Below, in pieces: positions 4,932 through 16,780 of a stretch of 51,558 bases of DNA (its first letter is position 1; every line of letters begins with the position of its first letter). Origin of the DNA: a virus; IMG/VR virus record IMGVR_UViG_3300028666_000042, positions 1 through 51,558 of that record. One strand, 5' to 3'. A model generated the notes under the pieces. That model did not search any database, was not told where the DNA came from, and saw only the letters and a program-made list of their open reading frames with translations. Position numbers and translations under genes: made by a program.

Positions 4932-5593
4932 ATGACGCAATCAAGGAACTGAGGGACGGTCGCGCGGGCGCGATTGGCTGTTGGGCGGCCGATGAGATCG
5001 AGGCGCTGCGCGTCGAGTTGGCGCAGTGGAAAAAGAACGCCGCCGAATCCATGCGTGACTTCACTGAGTCCGATGTCGAGAACCGGGCGCTGCGGGCGGC
5101 GCTGGAGAAGCTGCGCGGCATCAGCGGTGGCGCGAACGTCGGGGCGTTTAAGGACATTGATCTAATCGCCACCGAAGCCCTAGCAGGAGCCGCTGACCAA
5201 CCGGCGGTTGCTCGCCCTATCACGCGCGAGTGGCTGGATCGAAAGTTGGCGACGGTTGATGATTCCGCTGTCGGCGCAGGCGTCGCGCGGCGCGAGTCGG
5301 GGTTTTGGTGGCTAATCGAACTGGGATCGCCAAGCGATGAGCGCCTAGCCGACATCATTCGACAGGGCGAATCGTTCCACCGTTGGAACGGTGACAGCGA
5401 AAGCGCCGAAATGCTCGTTTGTCTGTTTCAGCTCCAAAGGCTTCGCAGCGCGGCAACGGCCGCATTCGTAGCCTATCAGGCGATGCCGGACGGGCCGCTT
5501 GGACACGGCCTGACGAATGGGCATTTTTTCGCGCTGCGCGACGCGCTAACTAGCCCCACTGTCCCCACACCCGATGCTCAGGTGAAGTTGTGA
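4928..5593 (+). CDS. Unknown early protein with coiled-coil N-terminus (221 aa)
   Basis: The ATG at 4928 was chosen for its ATGA overlap with the preceding gene. Residues about 25-65 form a charged helix (LRVELAQWKKNAAESMRDFT). The rest contains WLDRKLATVDDS and a hydrophobic core near FWWLIELGSPSDERLADI. This mosaic of helix, linker and late domain is typical of accessory phage proteins built from shared segments. No function can be assigned. Confidence 0.65.
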   Translation: MNDAIKELRDGRAGAIGCWAADEIEALRVELAQWKKNAAESMRDFTESDVENRALRAALEKLRGISGGANVGAFKDIDLIATEALAGAADQPAVARPITREWLDRKLATVDDSAVGAGVARRESGFWWLIELGSPSDERLADIIRQGESFHRWNGDSESAEMLVCLFQLQRLRSAATAAFVAYQAMPDGPLGHGLTNGHFFALRDALTSPTVPTPDAQVKL

Positions 5594-5856
5594 GCGAGTG
5601 GAACCGCGTTGGGTACGGCGGGTGGCAGGCGTTGCCGAAGGTCCAAGCGCTGTTCTACGTCGTGCCGAAAAACGCCGATGAAGCGCCGGTTAACACCAAC
5701 GGCGAGCCGATCCTAGGCCAAGGGGAGCCGCGAATCATGATCTGCCGCCCCGGCTGTTGGTCGTCGCTGGATAAGGCGACGCACTGGCTGCCGCTTCCCG
5801 CGCCGCCCGAAACACGAGCATCCGTGAACGTAACCGAGGAACTCACGAAGTCATGA
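5590..5856 (+). CDS. DUF551-like protein (88 aa)
   Basis: GTG at 5590 overlaps the previous stop (GTGA). The ending THWLPLPAPPE is the hallmark of DUF551 proteins, which are short phage and prophage proteins beginning with a conserved Trp-rich stretch; SEWNRVGYGGWQALP is seen here. Their biochemical role is unknown. In other phages they sit among nonessential early genes, as here. It overlaps the next gene by four bases. Confidence 0.75.
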   Translation: MSEWNRVGYGGWQALPKVQALFYVVPKNADEAPVNTNGEPILGQGEPRIMICRPGCWSSLDKATHWLPLPAPPETRASVNVTEELTKS

Positions 5857-6131
5857 AGAACAACCCGAACGAAATATCGTCTATCAACAAAGATGTGTTG
5901 CGCGATATAATCGAAGGCCGAAAACCCGAGGAGGCGGTCGCCCTCGTTGCTCGGGTCGAGAGGCTCGTTCCGGGGCATGAGAATTTCGGGCTGCCGGCCG
6001 CCGTCATATCATTCGAGTTTCGCGACAAGAACGGCCGCACGCTGGTACGAATCAACGAACACCAAATATCCGTGCACAGTGAGCTTAAGCTCTTGGACCT
6101 ACAGACCGCCCTAAATCTTACCGTCAGCTAG
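5853..6131 (+). CDS. Unknown early protein, last of the rightward operon (92 aa)
   Basis: ATG at 5853 overlaps the DUF551 gene stop (ATGA). A helical first third (INKDVLRDIIEGRKPEEAVA) is followed by what may be a beta domain (AVISFEFRDKNGRTLVRIN). The stop TAG at 6129-6131 interlocks with the TAG of the convergent primase gene in the palindrome CTAG. There is no room for a terminator between the operons. Confidence 0.65.
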   Translation: MKNNPNEISSINKDVLRDIIEGRKPEEAVALVARVERLVPGHENFGLPAAVISFEFRDKNGRTLVRINEHQISVHSELKLLDLQTALNLTVS

Positions 6132-8509
6132 CTCCGTTGAGCGTCGACGAAGCAAGCCACAATCTGAGCCTCTGTAAGCCCCGCCACGGCGTGGGGATGG
6201 CCCACCCGGATAAAGAGCACGGGCAATGCGCCATCGGCTAGGCGCGCCGCCGGGCGGCCGCCCGCGAGCCCCGGGTGCGGCACGTATCCGAGCGAGCGGA
6301 GCATGTCCACGCGGCGGTTGCGATTGATGGCCTTGGCCTTGCCGATGGTCGCGAGTAGATCGTTTAGCTTGTGACCGGCCACCCAACCGCCCCTAAAGCC
6401 TTCCCTGCCCTCGGCGATGGCCTCTAGCACCTCTTGCTCGGCCGATCCCCGCGACTCGCTGACGGCCTCGTGCGTGCTCGACGTGACAGGGGCCACGGTC
6501 GCGAGCTTCGCCGGGTTGAACTCATCGGGAATCGGCGAGGTGTAGAGGTACTCCGCGCAGATAGCCCACCCGCCCGCGTCGAGCCACCTAAACAGGTCTA
6601 TGAAGTATTGCGGGGTCAGGCCGTCACGCGCGAGGTGGGACTTGTGTTGCTGCGCCGTAAATATCGGGGCGATGCGCCGCTCGTTGTCGGACGCCGGCAG
6701 CGCGTCACGATAGTTGCTGTTGAGGATGATATTGAACGGCAGGAAGCGGGACAGGCGGTCGACCCCCTTGAATTCGACCTCGCCGTATTCTTCCGTAATC
6801 ATCGGCTTGAGGCTCTCCCACTGTAGCGCCTTGTCCTCGGCGACGTGCATGTCCTCAACCGTAATTAGAATTTTACCGTGATAGACGCTGTTGAATTTCG
6901 AGCCGAGTTGCGATGCCTTCGCCGGGTGGCAATAGATCCGCCCGACCGCGCGACTCAACACGTTCGATATGAGCGACTTGCCGTTGCCCTGCACGCCTTG
7001 GACGAACAGCGCCCACCGGGCTTTGCGCCCCGGATATTGAACGATGAACTTGAAAAACGACAGCGCGATTTCCCGGTCTCTGTCGTTGGGTATCAGCCGC
7101 CTCAGATGATCGAGGAACGGAGTCACGTCGCCGGCCTTCCGCTCGATAGGCACCGGCACGAACGTGTTGACGTACCGCCGGCCCTCAAGCTCGAAAATCT
7201 CGTTGGCCCCCCGCGTGGGCATGAAAATATCCGAGTGCACCTTGGGGAACGCGGTCAAGCGTGACTTCGTGAAACACTCCCACGCGCTCGTGATGGGTTT
7301 TTGCTCGGTCGCGCTGACACTGAATTCAAAGCCACCAAACGTCGAATCGAATTGCGGACGATCCAACCGACTGCCATCGGGAATCAGGATTTGGTCAACG
7401 TCTCGGACCCACACGCACCCGGCGAATAGTCGGTGTTGCTCGGGCACCGTCAGGTAGTCGCCGGGGCTGAATTCGCCCTCTACGGGCGCCGATGCTTGCG
7501 GCGCGTCAGACTCGGCAACATGTCCGATCTCGATTGCGGCCGTGAGGGTGGGTGCGGGCGGGGAGGTTCGAGAACCGCGCGAGTACCAGTTCCGGCACTC
7601 GCTGGCGGAGCGAATGACCGTGCGGGAAATGTAATCGGGGCGCTCCCACTTGTCCCGGGCGAGGGCGGAGCGGCGAGCCAGACGAAGCATCCGCTCGCAA
7701 TCGCTGCCAGTATAGAACGCGAGGTGATTAAACAACGCTTGGTCGGCGCTACTCCTATCGAACGCGTCGAGCGGTTTGTTAGGCGGGAACGCTTGCGCGA
7801 GTGCGGCATCGTCGGAATTCCATAGCTGTTGGAGCGTGACGCCTTTACCGAACAGGGCGTGAGGCGAGCCACGCGAGCGTAGCATGACGTCGATTAGCTC
7901 ATCGTCGTCGGTCGGCCCGAACCATGCTGCGACCGGCGTCTCGGTCCACTCCGGGTCGACCTCGTGCTCGGGCGCGGGCGGGAACATTTCCGCGAGCGTC
8001 CAAAGCAACGCCGCCGTTTGGTCGAGGAGAACATCGCCCACCATGTCGCGGAACGTGAGCGCGATAAACCGCTTTCGCGTGTAGCACTCGGTACGCGTCG
8101 CGGCATTCTTGACCCGGTGGGGAGCGACCGTGCCCGAGTAGCTAAACAGGATATGCAGCGATTCGCCGGACTGCGATATCTCAACGGCCGAGCCGTGGAA
8201 GCGCGCGCACATCTTGGCCGAGTGCTCGGACCACATCCCCGTTGATCGGTCTAGGCAGTGGTCGATATCAATGCAGCCGAGTCCGCTACCCTCGACGATC
8301 ACGAGCCCCACGCCAAAGCCGGCGCCAAGCCGCTCCGAAATCGCCCATGCGGTTTCCGGGAGCAGCCAGTTCTCCGGACTCTGAGCGTCGAGGTTGTCGA
8401 GCGTGTCAGGGTCTACGGGAATCTTGTCGACGGCGCCGCTGTCTGTCGGCACGAGCCGATAGACGATGAATTGCCGGCGCCCCGCAAGTGATTGCAGGAA
8501 CGGAGGCAC
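6128..8509 (-). CDS. Primase-helicase (AEP-type primase plus SF3/D5-like helicase)
   Basis: This 793-residue replication protein probably makes primers and unwinds the fork. The N-terminal domain has the archaeo-eukaryotic primase signature: GCIDIDHC with metal ligands Asp81 and Asp83, then ISQSGESLH (about 111-119). The C-terminal ATPase has Walker A GVQGNGKS (505-512), Walker B ILITVED (about 547-553), and an Asn-containing segment, INLNSN-like (FNIILNSNYRD), as in DUF5906/SF3 helicases. The start is GTG. It is the last gene of a leftward operon with a TetR-like protein, a VRR-NUC nuclease and an SF2 helicase. Fused primase-helicases of this kind are common in phages with a family A polymerase, such as the one at 14513-16780. 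Confidence 0.9.
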   Translation of the reverse strand: MPPFLQSLAGRRQFIVYRLVPTDSGAVDKIPVDPDTLDNLDAQSPENWLLPETAWAISERLGAGFGVGLVIVEGSGLGCIDIDHCLDRSTGMWSEHSAKMCARFHGSAVEISQSGESLHILFSYSGTVAPHRVKNAATRTECYTRKRFIALTFRDMVGDVLLDQTAALLWTLAEMFPPAPEHEVDPEWTETPVAAWFGPTDDDELIDVMLRSRGSPHALFGKGVTLQQLWNSDDAALAQAFPPNKPLDAFDRSSADQALFNHLAFYTGSDCERMLRLARRSALARDKWERPDYISRTVIRSASECRNWYSRGSRTSPPAPTLTAAIEIGHVAESDAPQASAPVEGEFSPGDYLTVPEQHRLFAGCVWVRDVDQILIPDGSRLDRPQFDSTFGGFEFSVSATEQKPITSAWECFTKSRLTAFPKVHSDIFMPTRGANEIFELEGRRYVNTFVPVPIERKAGDVTPFLDHLRRLIPNDRDREIALSFFKFIVQYPGRKARWALFVQGVQGNGKSLISNVLSRAVGRIYCHPAKASQLGSKFNSVYHGKILITVEDMHVAEDKALQWESLKPMITEEYGEVEFKGVDRLSRFLPFNIILNSNYRDALPASDNERRIAPIFTAQQHKSHLARDGLTPQYFIDLFRWLDAGGWAICAEYLYTSPIPDEFNPAKLATVAPVTSSTHEAVSESRGSAEQEVLEAIAEGREGFRGGWVAGHKLNDLLATIGKAKAINRNRRVDMLRSLGYVPHPGLAGGRPAARLADGALPVLFIRVGHPHAVAGLTEAQIVACFVDAQRS

Positions 8510-11149: not shown

Positions 11150-11226
11150 AGCGTGGGAGCTTGACGGATGTTCGTCGCGAGAGCAACATCGCTTCCCCCG
11201 TCACACCACACGCGGATGCAGGCACC
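11150..11226. promoter_or_regulatory. Divergent intergenic region between the two replication operons
   Basis: Seventy-seven bases separate the leftward helicase gene from the rightward proline-rich gene, so promoters for both operons are expected here or nearby. On the + strand TTGACG (11171-11176) could be a -35 box, but the hexamer 17 bases on (CAACAT) is a poor -10. On the - strand I see no good match. The region lacks the P1-P3 element, so these operons are probably controlled differently. Confidence 0.4.
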
Positions 11227-11982
11227 ATGCACCTAACAATTGATACGGATACCGAGAACACCGCCGGCCTACGTTTCGCCGCTGCGATTTTGTTGCAAGT
11301 CGCCGCCGGCAAGGAAGCGCCCGCGAAGCTCGCCGACGCGCCCGCTCCGCCACCGCCGCCCCCTTCCCCGGCCCCCGTCGCAGCACCGCCTACACCGCCT
11401 CCGCCCGCTCCGCCACCGCCGCCTGCTACCGCACCGGCAACCACGGTGGGCGAATCCGGCCGCGACCGCGACGGGGTGCCGTGGGACTTCCGAATCCACA
11501 GCGAGCGCAAGTCGCTCAACAAAGACGGCACGTGGCGCGTCCGCAAGAACCTCGATAAAGCCTATGTGCAAGCATTGTCGTACCGGCTGCGCGACAACCT
11601 TGAGGCCCCGCAAGGCGTGCCGACCCGCGAGGCACCCCCCGCTCCGCCGGCTCCGCCCCCGCCCCCTCCGCCTCCGACGACGACCGAGACGCCGCCCGAA
11701 ATGCGCGGGCTCTTCGGTCCCGCTGCCGGTGCGCCTCCGCCGCCGCCTCCGCCTCCCGCTGCCCCGCCGGCCGCACCGGGGACGCCTGACGTCGCCACGC
11801 TCGAAAAATTCCGTGACCTCATGTCGCGGGTGGTGCAGTTGCAAAAAGACGGGAAGCTCAACGCGCAGCAACGCGTCGACGGGTGCACGCGGGTCGGAGT
11901 CACGTCGCTACAGGATCTTGCCTCGCGGCCTGACCTCGTGGCGGCCTATGGCCTCTACCTCGACTCGCTCGGCATTCGGTAA
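11227..11982 (+). CDS. Proline-rich protein of the replication operon (251 aa)
   Basis: The ATG at 11227 is preferred over the TTG at 11161, which would place the start in the divergent control region. A short N-terminal domain (HLTIDTDTENTAGLRFAAAI) precedes three runs of consecutive prolines, at about residues 40-75, 140-160 and 180-200. Between them lies VPWDFRIHSERKSLNKDG-TWR, a motif I know from phage proteins near DUF2800 nucleases. The C-terminus is helical (LEKFRDLMSRVVQLQ). The polyproline runs would depend on host EF-P for translation. Its position suggests a scaffold or partner for the nuclease and ssDNA-binding proteins that follow. Confidence 0.75.
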   Translation: MHLTIDTDTENTAGLRFAAAILLQVAAGKEAPAKLADAPAPPPPPPSPAPVAAPPTPPPPAPPPPPATAPATTVGESGRDRDGVPWDFRIHSERKSLNKDGTWRVRKNLDKAYVQALSYRLRDNLEAPQGVPTREAPPAPPAPPPPPPPPTTTETPPEMRGLFGPAAGAPPPPPPPPAAPPAAPGTPDVATLEKFRDLMSRVVQLQKDGKLNAQQRVDGCTRVGVTSLQDLASRPDLVAAYGLYLDSLGIR

Positions 11983-12176: not shown

Positions 12177-13300
12177 GCTTTCATTGGCCCATTGGCTTTA
12201 GCAGCCTCGGCCGGACGGTCGAGTGCCCGGGTTCGGTCAAGCTCGGACTTGCCCACGCCAACGACCCGCCGACTCCGGAAATGATCGAGGGCACGGCCGC
12301 CGATTGGGTCGCCGAACAGCGCGTACTCGGCCACCCGGTTGTTGAGGGAAGCAAGGCCCCCAACGGCCACACCGTCGACGCCGAAATGATCTACGGCGCC
12401 AACCTGTGGGCGCGGCTCGTGTGCCGCAACGGCGTCGAGGGCGTTGCGCAAATGCCGATCCCGGCCGAGCGTATCCACCCGACCCACGCGGGCGGCACGC
12501 CGGACTACTACGCCTATGACCGCGCGTTCAAAACGCTGTACGTCGACGACTACAAGTATGGGCACCTCTACGTCGAGGTGTTCGAGAACTGGCAACTGGC
12601 CGGCGCTGCCGCCGCGTTGATAGACCTACTCGGGCTTGTCGACAGCGAGACCACGATTGTCGGAACCATCGTACAGCCGCGCAGTTACCACCCGGACGGC
12701 CCGGTGCGCTCGTGGCGCGTACGCGGGGACGAAATCCGCGCCATGATAAATGTCGCCCACGGTGCGGCGGTCGAGGCGCTGAAAGACGAACCGCGCACGA
12801 AGGTCGGGGATCACTGCGTACTGTGCCCGGCGCGTGTCGAATGTCGGACGCTGCAAAAGGCGACGTTGCAAATCCTTGACCTCGCCGGCATGGCGGAGCC
12901 GGTCAACCTTGGCCCGCACGAGTTGGGGCGAGAATTGAATTTCCTAGACCACGGCCTCGAACTGCTGGAGGCGCGACGCACGGGGCTCGCGGCGCAGGCC
13001 GAGGCGTTGCTCCGCTCGGGTCAGTCGATTCCGTACTACGGCCTTGCGCCCGGACAGGCTCGACTTTCGTGGAACATTCCCTCCGAAGAAGTCGCCGCCC
13101 TCTGCGACGCGTTCGGGATTGACGTAAGGAAGCCCCTCGCCGTCATTACGCCAACGCAAGCCAAGGCCGCAGGGCTTGCCGAGGAAACTGCTAAGGCGTA
13201 CTGTTCCCGCCCCACCGCCGCGTTGACGCTCAAGCGATTGAGCCTCGACGATTCCAGAAAACTGTTCGCCAACAACACCACGTCAACGAGGACGCCATGA
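12173..13300 (+). CDS. DUF2800-type PD-(D/E)XK nuclease with probable Fe-S cluster (375 aa)
   Basis: The protein begins with FSSLGRTVECPGS, where Cys18 sits in the position of the first ligand of Cas4/AddB-like exonucleases. The nuclease core shows GTPDYY with Asp111 and YVDDYKYG with Asp125 and Lys128. Three more Cys follow as C-x2-C-x5-C (215, 218, 224), which completes the 4Fe-4S pattern. This predicts a RecB-family exonuclease acting on DNA ends during replication or recombination. DUF2800 proteins regularly lie beside an ssDNA-binding protein and a family A polymerase, as here. GTG start, overlapping the gene before and the gene after. Confidence 0.85.
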   Translation: MSFHWPIGFSSLGRTVECPGSVKLGLAHANDPPTPEMIEGTAADWVAEQRVLGHPVVEGSKAPNGHTVDAEMIYGANLWARLVCRNGVEGVAQMPIPAERIHPTHAGGTPDYYAYDRAFKTLYVDDYKYGHLYVEVFENWQLAGAAAALIDLLGLVDSETTIVGTIVQPRSYHPDGPVRSWRVRGDEIRAMINVAHGAAVEALKDEPRTKVGDHCVLCPARVECRTLQKATLQILDLAGMAEPVNLGPHELGRELNFLDHGLELLEARRTGLAAQAEALLRSGQSIPYYGLAPGQARLSWNIPSEEVAALCDAFGIDVRKPLAVITPTQAKAAGLAEETAKAYCSRPTAALTLKRLSLDDSRKLFANNTTSTRTP

Positions 13301-14238
13301 CCGCCACCGCTCAGAATATCTTGACCCCAACCGGCCGCGTGGTGTGGGGCTCACTCTACGTCGCCCGCGACAAGGACTATGACGGAAATCCGATGGTCAT
13401 TAAGAATGGCCCCGACGCCGGCAAGCCGACGAGCCGTTACGAATTCGGCCTCGCGATCAAAAAGACGCAAGCGCACTGGGCAAGCGAGCCGTGGGCCGCG
13501 CCGATTTGGGCAACCGGCCACGCCGGGCACCCGGTCGCTGCGCAGCGCGATGACTTTGCGTGGAAAGTTCAAGACGGCGACAGCACCAAGCCCAACAAGC
13601 GGGGCAGCATCAACGCCAACAACGTTGACTATCGCGGTTGCTGGATTCTGTCATTCTCCTCGACGTTCGCGCCCAAGATCGTGAACGCCGACGGCTCCGC
13701 GTACATCCTTGAGCCCGATGCGGTCAAGCCCGGGTACTACGTGCAGGTTGCCGGCACCGTCGCCCCGAACACGGGCGCGAGCCCGGGCGTCTACCTCAAC
13801 CACAACGTCGTGTCGTTGCAGGGCTACGGCCCTGAGATCATCACCGGCCCGGACCCCAAGTCGCTCGGCTTCGGTGGCGCGCTACCCCCGGGCGCGAGCG
13901 CAACCCCGGTTGCGAACATGACCGCGCCGCCTGCCGTCCCGCCGCCTCCGGCGCCGCACGCGGCGACGATTTCGCCCCCGCCTCCGCCGCCCCCGAGCGC
14001 GCCGGCCGCCGCTGCACCGCCCCCGGTGCCCGTGCAGCCGCATCCCGCGTTCGTCGCGCCGGCCGCCGTACCGCCGCCTCCGCCGAGCGCAGCGCCCGCC
14101 GCGCCGGCACCGCCCCCGCCGCCTCCGCCGGCGCCGGTCGGCCCGCAGATGACCGCAGCGGCGACGACCACCTATGCGGCGTACATCGCCGCCGGGTGGA
14201 CCAACGAGACGTTGCGGGCGAACGGGCTCATGGTGTGA
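13297..14238 (+). CDS. ssDNA-binding protein (DUF2815-like) with polyproline tail (313 aa)
   Basis: Residues 1-190 have the features of the phage DUF2815/gp2.5-like OB-fold proteins: TPTGRVVWGSLYVARD, then FAWKVQDGD, then GYYVQVAGTVAPN and GVYLNHNVVSLQGYG. These coat ssDNA at the fork. Residues about 195-290 are a low-complexity Pro/Ala linker with runs of up to seven prolines. The last 22 residues (YAAYIAAGWTNETLRANGLM) are a short conserved peptide that I expect to be a partner-binding tip. There is no acidic DDDIPF tail here; that peptide appears instead at the end of the exonuclease gene at 14513. ATGA overlap with the nuclease gene. Confidence 0.8.
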   Translation: MTATAQNILTPTGRVVWGSLYVARDKDYDGNPMVIKNGPDAGKPTSRYEFGLAIKKTQAHWASEPWAAPIWATGHAGHPVAAQRDDFAWKVQDGDSTKPNKRGSINANNVDYRGCWILSFSSTFAPKIVNADGSAYILEPDAVKPGYYVQVAGTVAPNTGASPGVYLNHNVVSLQGYGPEIITGPDPKSLGFGGALPPGASATPVANMTAPPAVPPPPAPHAATISPPPPPPPSAPAAAAPPPVPVQPHPAFVAPAAVPPPPPSAAPAAPAPPPPPPPAPVGPQMTAAATTTYAAYIAAGWTNETLRANGLMV

Positions 14239-14378
14239 GTCAAGGCCGACCGCGAGGGGGCACGTACCAATCGTGGGTACCGTGCCCCCGGGGTCACTTC
14301 ACGTTCTACGTAAAACATCCGCGAATGTGCGCCACGTGTCGACGGGGGTCCTATGAGCGAAAAAGAGGAAAACGCTAG
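14235..14378 (+). CDS. Small zinc-ribbon-like protein (47 aa)
   Basis: GTG at 14235 overlaps the preceding stop (GTGA). The sequence has CPRGHFTFY and CATCRRG, giving one zinc site of the C-x3-H and C-x2-C type, in a very basic protein ending in YERKRGKR. It probably binds nucleic acid. It overlaps the next gene by 26 bases. The overlap pattern and the intact ligand set support a real gene. Confidence 0.6.
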   Translation: MSQGRPRGGTYQSWVPCPRGHFTFYVKHPRMCATCRRGSYERKRGKR

Positions 14379-14535
14379 GCTGCGTCGGTGGCTGCACGCC
14401 ATCATCATGAGCCCCGACTACACGGGCAGCGAAATGAAAGCGGACGCAGAGCGTGCGCTGCAAGGCCAAGAATTCCCGGACAGCCACCCGCTAGCAACAA
14501 AGGTAATCGCCCTTGAGCGTTCGCTCGGGCGATAG
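14353..14535 (+). CDS. Small helical protein (60 aa)
   Basis: ATG at 14353 is preceded by GGGGG about 5 bases upstream. The protein is charged and helical (SEKEENARLRRWLHAII, then SEMKADAERALQG). Short proteins of this composition occur just before the polymerase gene in related phages. Role unknown. It overlaps the exonuclease gene by 23 bases. Confidence 0.6.
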   Translation: MSEKEENARLRRWLHAIIMSPDYTGSEMKADAERALQGQEFPDSHPLATKVIALERSLGR

Positions 14536-15079
14536 GTTTTCGGTCGGGGCCGGGATCGCAACGGCCCTGCCGACGTTTGACTTCGAAACGTTCGGGACCG
14601 CCGGCTACGTGTGGGTGCCCGAGGAAAACAAATGGCGCGGAGTCGAAGGATCGCCGGGGACAAAGCGCGGGCTGCCCGTCGTTGGCGTCCGAAATTACGT
14701 GACGCATCCGAGCTTCGAAATCCTGTTGTTGTCGTGGGATTTGCTCGACGGTGCGGGGAATCAATCGTGGTCGCCGCACGCTCCCACGTACCCGAGGCCG
14801 CTGATAGAGCATGTCCGCAACGGTGGATTGCTAGAAGCCTTCAATGTAAATTTCGAGTGGACGGTATGGAATTTTTATTGCGTACCGCGTTGGAGTTGGC
14901 CCCCGTTGAATATCCGTCAATGCCGGTGCGCGATGGCGAAGGGCCGGGCGTGGGGACTGCCGGGTAGCCTAGAGGATCAAGGCAAAGTCGTTGACAACAT
15001 GCACCCGAGCCACATTCAAATAGTGGCGCCCACGCTGCCGGCGATTCCCGACGGCTATGACGACGATATCCCGTTCTAA
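14513..15079 (+). CDS. 3'-5' exonuclease half of a split family A DNA polymerase, ending in an SSB-like tail (188 aa)
   Basis: TTG at 14513, with AAAGG about 10 bases upstream, is the only workable start. Exo I is TFDFETFG with Asp23 and Glu25, and Exo II is AFNVNFEW (109-116). The CRCAMAKGRAWGLPGSLE helix that follows is what one sees in intact phage polymerases. In those the chain then runs on through about five residues to the GRLM segment, which here lies in the next gene. Instead, 27 new residues follow Asp161, ending in GYDDDIPF and then TAA. DDDIPF at the extreme C-terminus is identical to the bacterial SSB tip. Exo III (YNRQD) is in the downstream gene, so the two chains must associate to make a complete exonuclease. 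Confidence 0.85.
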   Translation: MSVRSGDRFSVGAGIATALPTFDFETFGTAGYVWVPEENKWRGVEGSPGTKRGLPVVGVRNYVTHPSFEILLLSWDLLDGAGNQSWSPHAPTYPRPLIEHVRNGGLLEAFNVNFEWTVWNFYCVPRWSWPPLNIRQCRCAMAKGRAWGLPGSLEDQGKVVDNMHPSHIQIVAPTLPAIPDGYDDDIPF

Positions 15080-16780
15080 ATGATCGGACTCCAACTCAAG
15101 GACCCCGACGGCGGGCGGTTGATGCGGAAGTTTTCGAACCCGCGCAACCCGACCAAGAAGGACCCGCGCACGCGCATACGTCCTATCGAGGACCCCGAGG
15201 ACGGTCCGAAGTTTGTCGCGTACAACCGCCAAGACGTGCGCGCGGAAATCGACCTCTCGATACACGTGCCCGACCTCTCGCCGCGTGAACAACGGATATG
15301 GGAGGTCGACCAACTCGTCAACCAACGCGGCATACAGATTGACGAAAAGGCCGTCGACGATTGTATCGCGATTCTCTATCAAGCCGAAGCGAAGTACACC
15401 GCTCGACTTCGCTACCTGACGAACAATCACGTGCAGGAAGCCAGCGAGGTTGCGCAAATCGTTGCGTGGCTCGCGATGCAAGGCGAGTACACGCCCAATC
15501 TTGACGACGACGCAATCGAATCCTTGCTCGCGCGCGGACTGCGCGCCGACGTGCGAGAAGTCCTTGAGATCCGCCAGAAGCTCGGCAGCGCGTCGGTCAA
15601 AAAAGTCTTTGCGTTCAAGTTGCAGTCGGTCAGGGGTCGCGTTTATGACCTCTACATGTATGCGATTGCGCGCACGCTTCGGTGGGGCGGCAGCGGCCCG
15701 CAACCCCAGAACATGCCCAAGGGCAAGTTTAAGAAAATCGCCGACGTCGAGCGCGCGCTAAAGTGTCTGTCGACCCGCGTCCTCGAATGCGTCGAGGCCG
15801 AATACGGCGACGCGCTGGAATGCATCGCGAGCGTGCTGCGCTCGTTGCTGATCGCGGCGCCCGGTCATGACCTCATTTGCTCCGACTACTCGGCGGTCGA
15901 GGCCGTCATATCCGCGTGCCTGACGGGCGAGGAGTGGCGGATAGAAGTGTTCCGCACGCACGGCAAGATTTACGAAGCGACCGCCGCGCGCCTGTACGGA
16001 ATCCCGTTCGAGGAGTTACTCCGCCACAAAAAAGAGACCGGCGAGCATCACCCGATCCGCGACAAAACCAAGCGTATCGAACTCGGGACCGGGTTCGGCG
16101 GTTGGGTCGGTGCAATGAAATCGTCACAGATTCGGCTCGACGAAATCCTCGACGACGAAGGCATAAAGCGTGCGGTCCTAGACTGGCGCCGCGCGAACCC
16201 GAGCTATCCGGAAATGTGGGGCGGCCAGACGCGCGGCCGATTCGAGTACGCGCGCGAGGAACTGTTCGGCCTTGAAGGCGCAGCGATTGCGGCGGTCAAG
16301 AACCCCGGGCAGTGTTTCGGCTATCGAGGCATCCGCTACCAGACGCAGGGCGACGCGCTCTATTGCTGCCTCCTCGACGGCGGGATGTTGACGTACCACG
16401 CGCCGCGACTCGCACGCTCTACGCGCGAGTGGGCGAAGCCGTGGGAATTGGAACTGACATTCGAGGGCTACAACACCAACCCCAAAATGGGGGCAATGGG
16501 TTGGGTCCGGATGAAAACCTACGGAGGCAAGCTCTTTGAAAACGTCGTGCAGGCCACCGGGCGCAACATGCAAGCCGCCGCGCTCGTGCGCCTAGAGGAC
16601 GCGGGCTATCGCCCAGTGATCCACTCACACGACGAAATCGCAGGCGAGGTGCCGGAGGGTTGGGGCTCGATCGAGGAGTTCGAGCGGATCATGTCCACGC
16701 CGGCCCACGAGTGTTACGCGGGCTGGCCGATCAAATGCGCCGGGGGTTGGCGCGGGAAACGCTATGGAAAATTTGAATAG
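15080..16780 (+). CDS. Family A DNA polymerase, polymerase half (566 aa)
   Basis: The replicative DNA polymerase. It starts with IGLQLKDPDGGRLMRKFSNP, which in other phages is the middle of the exonuclease domain, and carries Exo III as YNRQD (Tyr48, Asp52). The polymerase motifs are complete: motif A CSDYSAVE (Asp269), motif B RDKTKRIELGTGFGG (327-341) and motif C HSHDE (Asp518, Glu519). The ATG at 15080 follows the TAA of the exonuclease gene directly and in the same frame. No Shine-Dalgarno sequence is evident (upstream is GACGACGATATCC), so synthesis probably depends on re-initiation after termination or on stop-codon readthrough. Confidence 0.9.
   Translation: MIGLQLKDPDGGRLMRKFSNPRNPTKKDPRTRIRPIEDPEDGPKFVAYNRQDVRAEIDLSIHVPDLSPREQRIWEVDQLVNQRGIQIDEKAVDDCIAILYQAEAKYTARLRYLTNNHVQEASEVAQIVAWLAMQGEYTPNLDDDAIESLLARGLRADVREVLEIRQKLGSASVKKVFAFKLQSVRGRVYDLYMYAIARTLRWGGSGPQPQNMPKGKFKKIADVERALKCLSTRVLECVEAEYGDALECIASVLRSLLIAAPGHDLICSDYSAVEAVISACLTGEEWRIEVFRTHGKIYEATAARLYGIPFEELLRHKKETGEHHPIRDKTKRIELGTGFGGWVGAMKSSQIRLDEILDDEGIKRAVLDWRRANPSYPEMWGGQTRGRFEYAREELFGLEGAAIAAVKNPGQCFGYRGIRYQTQGDALYCCLLDGGMLTYHAPRLARSTREWAKPWELELTFEGYNTNPKMGAMGWVRMKTYGGKLFENVVQATGRNMQAAALVRLEDAGYRPVIHSHDEIAGEVPEGWGSIEEFERIMSTPAHECYAGWPIKCAGGWRGKRYGKFE

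Follow-up and report, generated by a model that had tools for sequence, protein, structure and literature searches.

A split family A phage DNA polymerase with an SSB-type C-terminal tip, and candidate recoded tips at the SSB genes of related phages

The N-terminal chain of a split family A DNA polymerase, encoded in the stretch of 51,558 nucleotides analysed here in full (the window), ends in DDDIPF (15059–15076; this and the other parts of the window's polymerase and SSB genes described below lie on the plus strand), the exact hexapeptide of the bacterial SSB C-terminus. Taken as a whole, the sequence comparisons make it fairly probable that a short insert split the polymerase gene and that an SSB-derived tip docks the reassembled enzyme. 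The best reading of the wider clade is that an SSB-type docking tip would be added to a replisome protein, usually via recoding of the SSB gene and here by fixation in the polymerase.

Results

The window encodes the polymerase as two chains, both matching one PHROG family of DNA polymerases, phrog_17. The N-terminal chain (14513–15079, 188 aa, E 9.6e-10) starts at TTG and carries in order Exo I (DFET, 14579–14590, residues 23–26, with D23, E25, and T26 invariant in the alignment), Exo II (NVNFEW, 14843–14860, residues 111–116 by alignment), and an added tail, with the C-terminus reading TLPAIPDGYDDDIPF and its last residues, GYDDDIPF, standing directly before TAA (15077–15079), as the preliminary description had stated. 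The C-terminal chain (15080–16780, 566 aa, E 2e-63) begins in the same frame at an ATG immediately behind this stop, a point missed in that description, with no Shine-Dalgarno sequence visible ahead of it in the sequence read directly, and comprises the end of the exonuclease domain followed by the polymerase domain. Exo III (YNRQD, 15221–15235, residues 237–241 of the joined frame, with Y237 and D241 invariant) lies on this second chain, which had likewise been overlooked. The three exonuclease motifs, the polymerase domain, and a Klenow-like fold are thus all present, spread over two chains rather than one uninterrupted chain, and the break falls inside the exonuclease domain, with Exo II and Exo III on different chains. 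Because Exo III is on the second chain, the tailed chain is not a complete, self-sufficient proofreading subunit, as it had been taken to be. The earlier proposal that a docking signal was moved onto the polymerase therefore stands in part: the insertion, its non-chance character, and the fit of the role hold, whereas the notion of a complete proofreading subunit does not.

A model of the joined frame, in which TAA was read as Gln for modelling only, has a mean pLDDT of 91.6 and a pTM of 0.89, and the solved structures that match it best include the Klenow fragment and phage G20c Pol I. Residues 173–189 of the tail are disordered (pLDDT <50), with ordered elements on both sides, and on this model a reassembly of the two chains that leaves the tip free is plausible. 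The continuous frame across TAA and the good model of the joined chain would also suit readthrough of the stop, giving one long polymerase with the tip in an internal loop and never terminal; the ATG that follows at once, and the nature of TAA as a normally efficient stop, make such readthrough hardly credible. The SSB tip peptide needs a free C-terminus to act as it does in SSB.

The insert (14993–15091), comprising the tail, TAA, and the ATG of the next chain, amounts to ~28–30 codons, its ends being uncertain by a few codons, and falls after Exo II (residue 111) and before Exo III (residue 237). The preliminary description had guessed at an insertion of about 27 extra residues, and the alignment it called for agrees: none of 39 intact relatives has anything corresponding to residues 168–193 of the joined frame, and when both halves are searched against phages by tblastn the matches abut, with the insert missing. 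A further 80 of 80 relatives are intact at the exonuclease-polymerase locus, and the exact split of the window was not found at any of these 80 loci; the insertion is documented in one metagenomic contig. The six frames of the whole window contain 977 open stretches of 30 codons or more, of which the 14513–15079 chain alone ends in an SSB-like tip, and the pattern [DE][DE]IPF-stop occurs in just 2 of 42 related phage genomes, a rarity that makes chance a poor explanation. By the features that define an SSB C-terminus, the tail has the acidic hexapeptide, the Ile-Pro-Phe end, the free C-terminus, and, in the joined-chain model, a disordered linker ahead of the tip (residues 173–189); its carrier is a family A polymerase chain and not an OB-fold ssDNA-binding protein. 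A tblastn search of phages for a known SSB tail resembling it returned a sole match, the sliding clamp of Brenneria phage BREN6.

This clamp (L017, phrog_947, 6951–8033) ends in PDGYDDDIPF, in a phage whose own SSB is tip-free, and its gene adjoins a phrog_1252 polymerase. DDDIPF also ends a clamp-like protein (L089) and helicase-like proteins (L054, L077, L082, L090) of metagenomic phages, all assigned by eye. Given its presence on the BREN6 clamp and on these helicase- and clamp-like proteins, the tip appears to behave like a portable tag, and a docking role fits with its occurrence on other phage replisome proteins.

A second, independently split polymerase (L198) has an exonuclease chain with Exo I–III that ends in APAEGAPLPDFDYDNEIPF, with the tip DYDNEIPF, followed by a methyltransferase ORF (7119–7598, phrog_111) and then the polymerase chain; no tip lies near the SSB of this phage. 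In a third phage, L011, the exonuclease domain is broken near the position of the window's break by 1.3 kb with small ORFs (5513–6822), the N-terminal chain carries no tip, and a tip stands behind the SSB gene instead. Splits in this region are evidently tolerated, as the tip-free chain of L011 indicates, and the window could accordingly represent a neutral accident, in which a small insertion split the gene, the pieces complement each other, and the tail has no role. Against this, an exact DDDIPF is very unlikely to arise by chance, even the looser pattern being so scarce, the second split chain is itself tipped, and the tip of L011 sits behind SSB; we judge such an accident very unlikely. 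As a separate observation, a family A polymerase of another phage (L001, 5001–7514) bears an apparent intein insertion.

The window's own ssDNA-binding protein is gp2.5-like (13297–14238, phrog_7011, E 8.1e-61), with a weak match to Pfam Enc34_ssDNA-bd below the cut-off of that family. It ends in GLMV, its gene closing with GTG TGA, so that the tip-free state previously ascribed to it is correct, and no tip occurs in any frame nearby. Neither a prfB-type arrangement, the gene ending GTG TGA with no tip in the +1 frame, nor a T7-type in-frame acidic tail is present. A putative coding stretch in the −1 frame relative to SSB, containing the zinc-ribbon-like CPRGHFTFYVKHPRMCATC, runs across the SSB stop (14196–14378) and is tip-free; similar −1 frame ribbons in relatives end in a CxxC-IPF tip. 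The window also has a phrog_11133 gene at 11161–11982.

In related phages, tips were found out of frame at the SSB gene. A scan for DDDIPF-stop matched a single relative, L080, where the hit falls in the gap that follows the gp2.5-like SSB gene, and the scan of genome contigs gave two relatives only. Across 108 non-redundant gp2.5-like SSB genes from related phages, 11 have a similar tip immediately downstream of the SSB stop in the +1 frame; in 8 of these 11 the stop is preceded by CTT, as in prfB. In L080, L004, L003, and L011 the SSB ends in GHMV(K/R)L, and the +1 tail behind the CTT-stop ends in DDDIPF or DDPIPF; further relatives with +1 tips are L191/L193, L192, L203, L239, L231, L199, L187, and L219, with stop contexts including CTT TGA CTA, as in prfB (L203), GTT TAG (L199), CCC TAA (L187), and CGA TAA (L219). 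CUU-U before the stop together with a conserved +1 extension, a candidate shift site, is seen in L004, L080, L003, L011, L191, L192, L203, L239, and L231, with UGA, UAG, or UAA next and GGTG three bases ahead of CTT, and each of the six contigs in which the motif GGYCAYATGGTNARRCTTTRR was detected carries such a tip. Roughly three in four SSB genes from related phages have no tip nearby, hence the clade does not depend on it.

Assembly or homopolymer error was considered as a source of the +1 tails and rejected, with nine contigs and three different stops (TGA, TAG, TAA) following CTT, and with changes in the +1 peptide being mainly synonymous. Independent small genes were also rejected as the source of out-of-frame tips, as most of the open stretches, including that of L080, lack an ATG, GTG, or TTG start. 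A weaker +1 tip, WDDIPL or WDDIPLF, is present in Nonanavirus, Gorganvirus, and related phages, and Bas82 has WDNIPL; in L147, L148, L149, L152, and L317–L320, from Nonana-, Gorgan-, and related enterobacterial phages, the +1 SSB tail ends in WDDIPL(F/I). These phages have a conserved TTT-C upstream of the +1 tail and no CTT-stop, which we regard as a lead only.

A second class of tip, found in ~15 more of the 108 SSB genes, is Cys-rich, often with a zinc-ribbon-like end and CxxC-IPF, and lies in the −1 frame inside the 3′ part of SSB; one further gene has a tip behind UAG. Ends of the form CxxC-(I/V)PF occur in L155, L157, L163, L167, L171, L183, L184, L204, L207, L214, L216, L221, L265, and L284, and in several relatives, though not all, the ribbon is preceded by a slippery CCCTTTN or AAACCCT. 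In L195 and L141 it is instead a Pro-rich gene upstream (phrog_11133 in L195) whose −1 frame contains the Cys-rich end. The tip DLDDEIPF of L225, 45 bases past the SSB stop, stands in frame behind a TAG-C stop, an arrangement that suggests readthrough, and in L208 and L287 the tip is in frame within SSB itself.

The numbers of both out-of-frame classes exceed expectation. Over 68 non-redundant SSB genes, 10 tips were seen in the +1 frame compared with 0.002 expected from Markov resampling of the downstream sequence, and 13 in the −1 frame compared with 0.07 expected from synonymous codon shuffles. A scan of 653 kb gave 35 tips, all on the plus strand; 29 lie in the interval from −450 to +150 relative to an SSB stop. 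All eight SSB genes with a CTT-stop have a +1 tip, compared with 3 of 100 others (Fisher 5e-10), although the SSB genes are kin and p-values from such related sequences overstate their independence and hence the significance. Additionally, over the last 48 bases L191 and L011 differ in the +1 frame by 11 synonymous and 2 nonsynonymous codon changes, with 0/12 and 1/11 synonymous/nonsynonymous in the other two frames, a signature of selection on the +1 peptide.

The window tail was likely copied from such an SSB tail, judging by its sequence. At its tip the insert matches the SSB tail of L231 in 23 identical bases, and its SHIQIV aligns to SHKQIV or SHRQIV in the SSB 3′ ends and tails of relatives. 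For the part ahead of the tip, only 7 of 5000 shuffles align as well with L004, giving moderate support, and the comparisons with L080 and L231 are weak (172 and 714 of 5000 shuffles respectively); with weak homology to two of the three relatives, the tip may be convergent. Host SSB is probably not the source, in that the closest relatives have the tip downstream of their own SSB gene, in another frame.

Discussion

We propose that a segment of ~85–90 bases entered the polymerase gene between Exo II and Exo III and gave rise to two chains. Translation of the second chain most likely occurs by termination-coupled re-initiation, as it starts at an ATG right after the stop. Going by the joined-chain model, the two chains would then reassemble into one exonuclease-polymerase, each enzyme with one exposed SSB tip. 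The tip would most likely dock the polymerase on proteins with an SSB-tip pocket, either host chi, PriA, RecQ, Exo I, DnaG, or RecO, or a phage counterpart, as suggested by the tip-free state of this phage's own SSB.

Two other uses of the tip must be weighed. It could act as a decoy, titrating host SSB partners and disturbing host replication restart and repair, for which it has the peptide of host SSB itself, a peptide that is disordered when the joined chain is modelled. One would expect a polymerase subunit to be scarcer than host SSB, however, and therefore a poor competitor, and in relatives the tip is predicted on only a fraction of SSB, leaving a decoy quite unlikely. Alternatively, the tip could bind phage proteins, such as the groove of this phage's gp2.5-like SSB or its helicase, in the manner of the acidic tail of T7 gp2.5. 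The acidic tail of Enc34 SSB is reported to affect DNA choice (PMC5686142), and contacts of the T7 gp2.5 tail with polymerase and primase-helicase are cited in the same paper. The hexapeptide, however, is the exact bacterial consensus, as are many of the relatives' tips, which suggests a conserved bacterial pocket, and we consider binding to phage partners unlikely.

Docking by an SSB-derived tip thus remains the preferred reading, and the tip probably derives from an SSB gene. Relatives would add it to a fraction of their SSB by a +1 shift at CUU-U before the stop, by a −1 shift, or by readthrough, and in the window's lineage it would have reached the polymerase gene by copying or transfer, and there recoding would be unnecessary. 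It is for us an even call whether the clade at large controls recruitment of SSB-tip binders by recoding SSB into a tip-free and a minor tipped form, with the cassette mobile between replisome genes and fixed in the split polymerases of the window and L198.

In the accessible part of a frameshifting review (PMC5009743), CUU-U is described as outperforming every other +1 site tested before UAG by a wide margin, and neither that part of the review nor a tool paper (PMC10885494) includes an SSB case. Recoding of SSB genes was not found in the literature searched, though such absence is no proof of novelty. If the proposal holds, the SSB tip is for phages a portable tag for docking whose dose depends on recoding or on the carrier chosen, and gene callers would miss the functional, out-of-frame C-terminus of such SSBs. 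The weaker versions in cultured enterobacterial phages make the idea testable.

Compared with the bacterial SSB C-terminus, the window tail ends freely in the identical hexapeptide, preceded by a predicted disordered stretch, whereas its carrier is a polymerase chain rather than an OB-fold ssDNA-binding protein. The window SSB resembles T7 gp2.5 and Enc34 ORF6 in belonging to a Gp2.5-like PHROG, phrog_7011; in descriptions of T7-type SSBs the acidic tail is in frame (PMC5686142), however, whilst the window SSB has none and the tips of relatives are out of frame. As in the +1 frameshifting of prfB (CUU UGA C), the SSB genes of relatives end in a CTT-stop with CUU-U, but the predicted shift adds a 3′ docking tip and not the main protein, and the window needs no shift. 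Similarly, dnaX −1 frameshifting yields two C-termini from one replication gene, with the difference that the alternative end here carries an SSB-type tip. Other split phage DNA polymerases also consist of two chains; in the window it is the exonuclease domain that is broken, and the first chain bears an SSB tip. The BREN6 clamp shares the same ten C-terminal residues, likewise alongside a tip-free SSB, on a protein of a different family, phrog_947.
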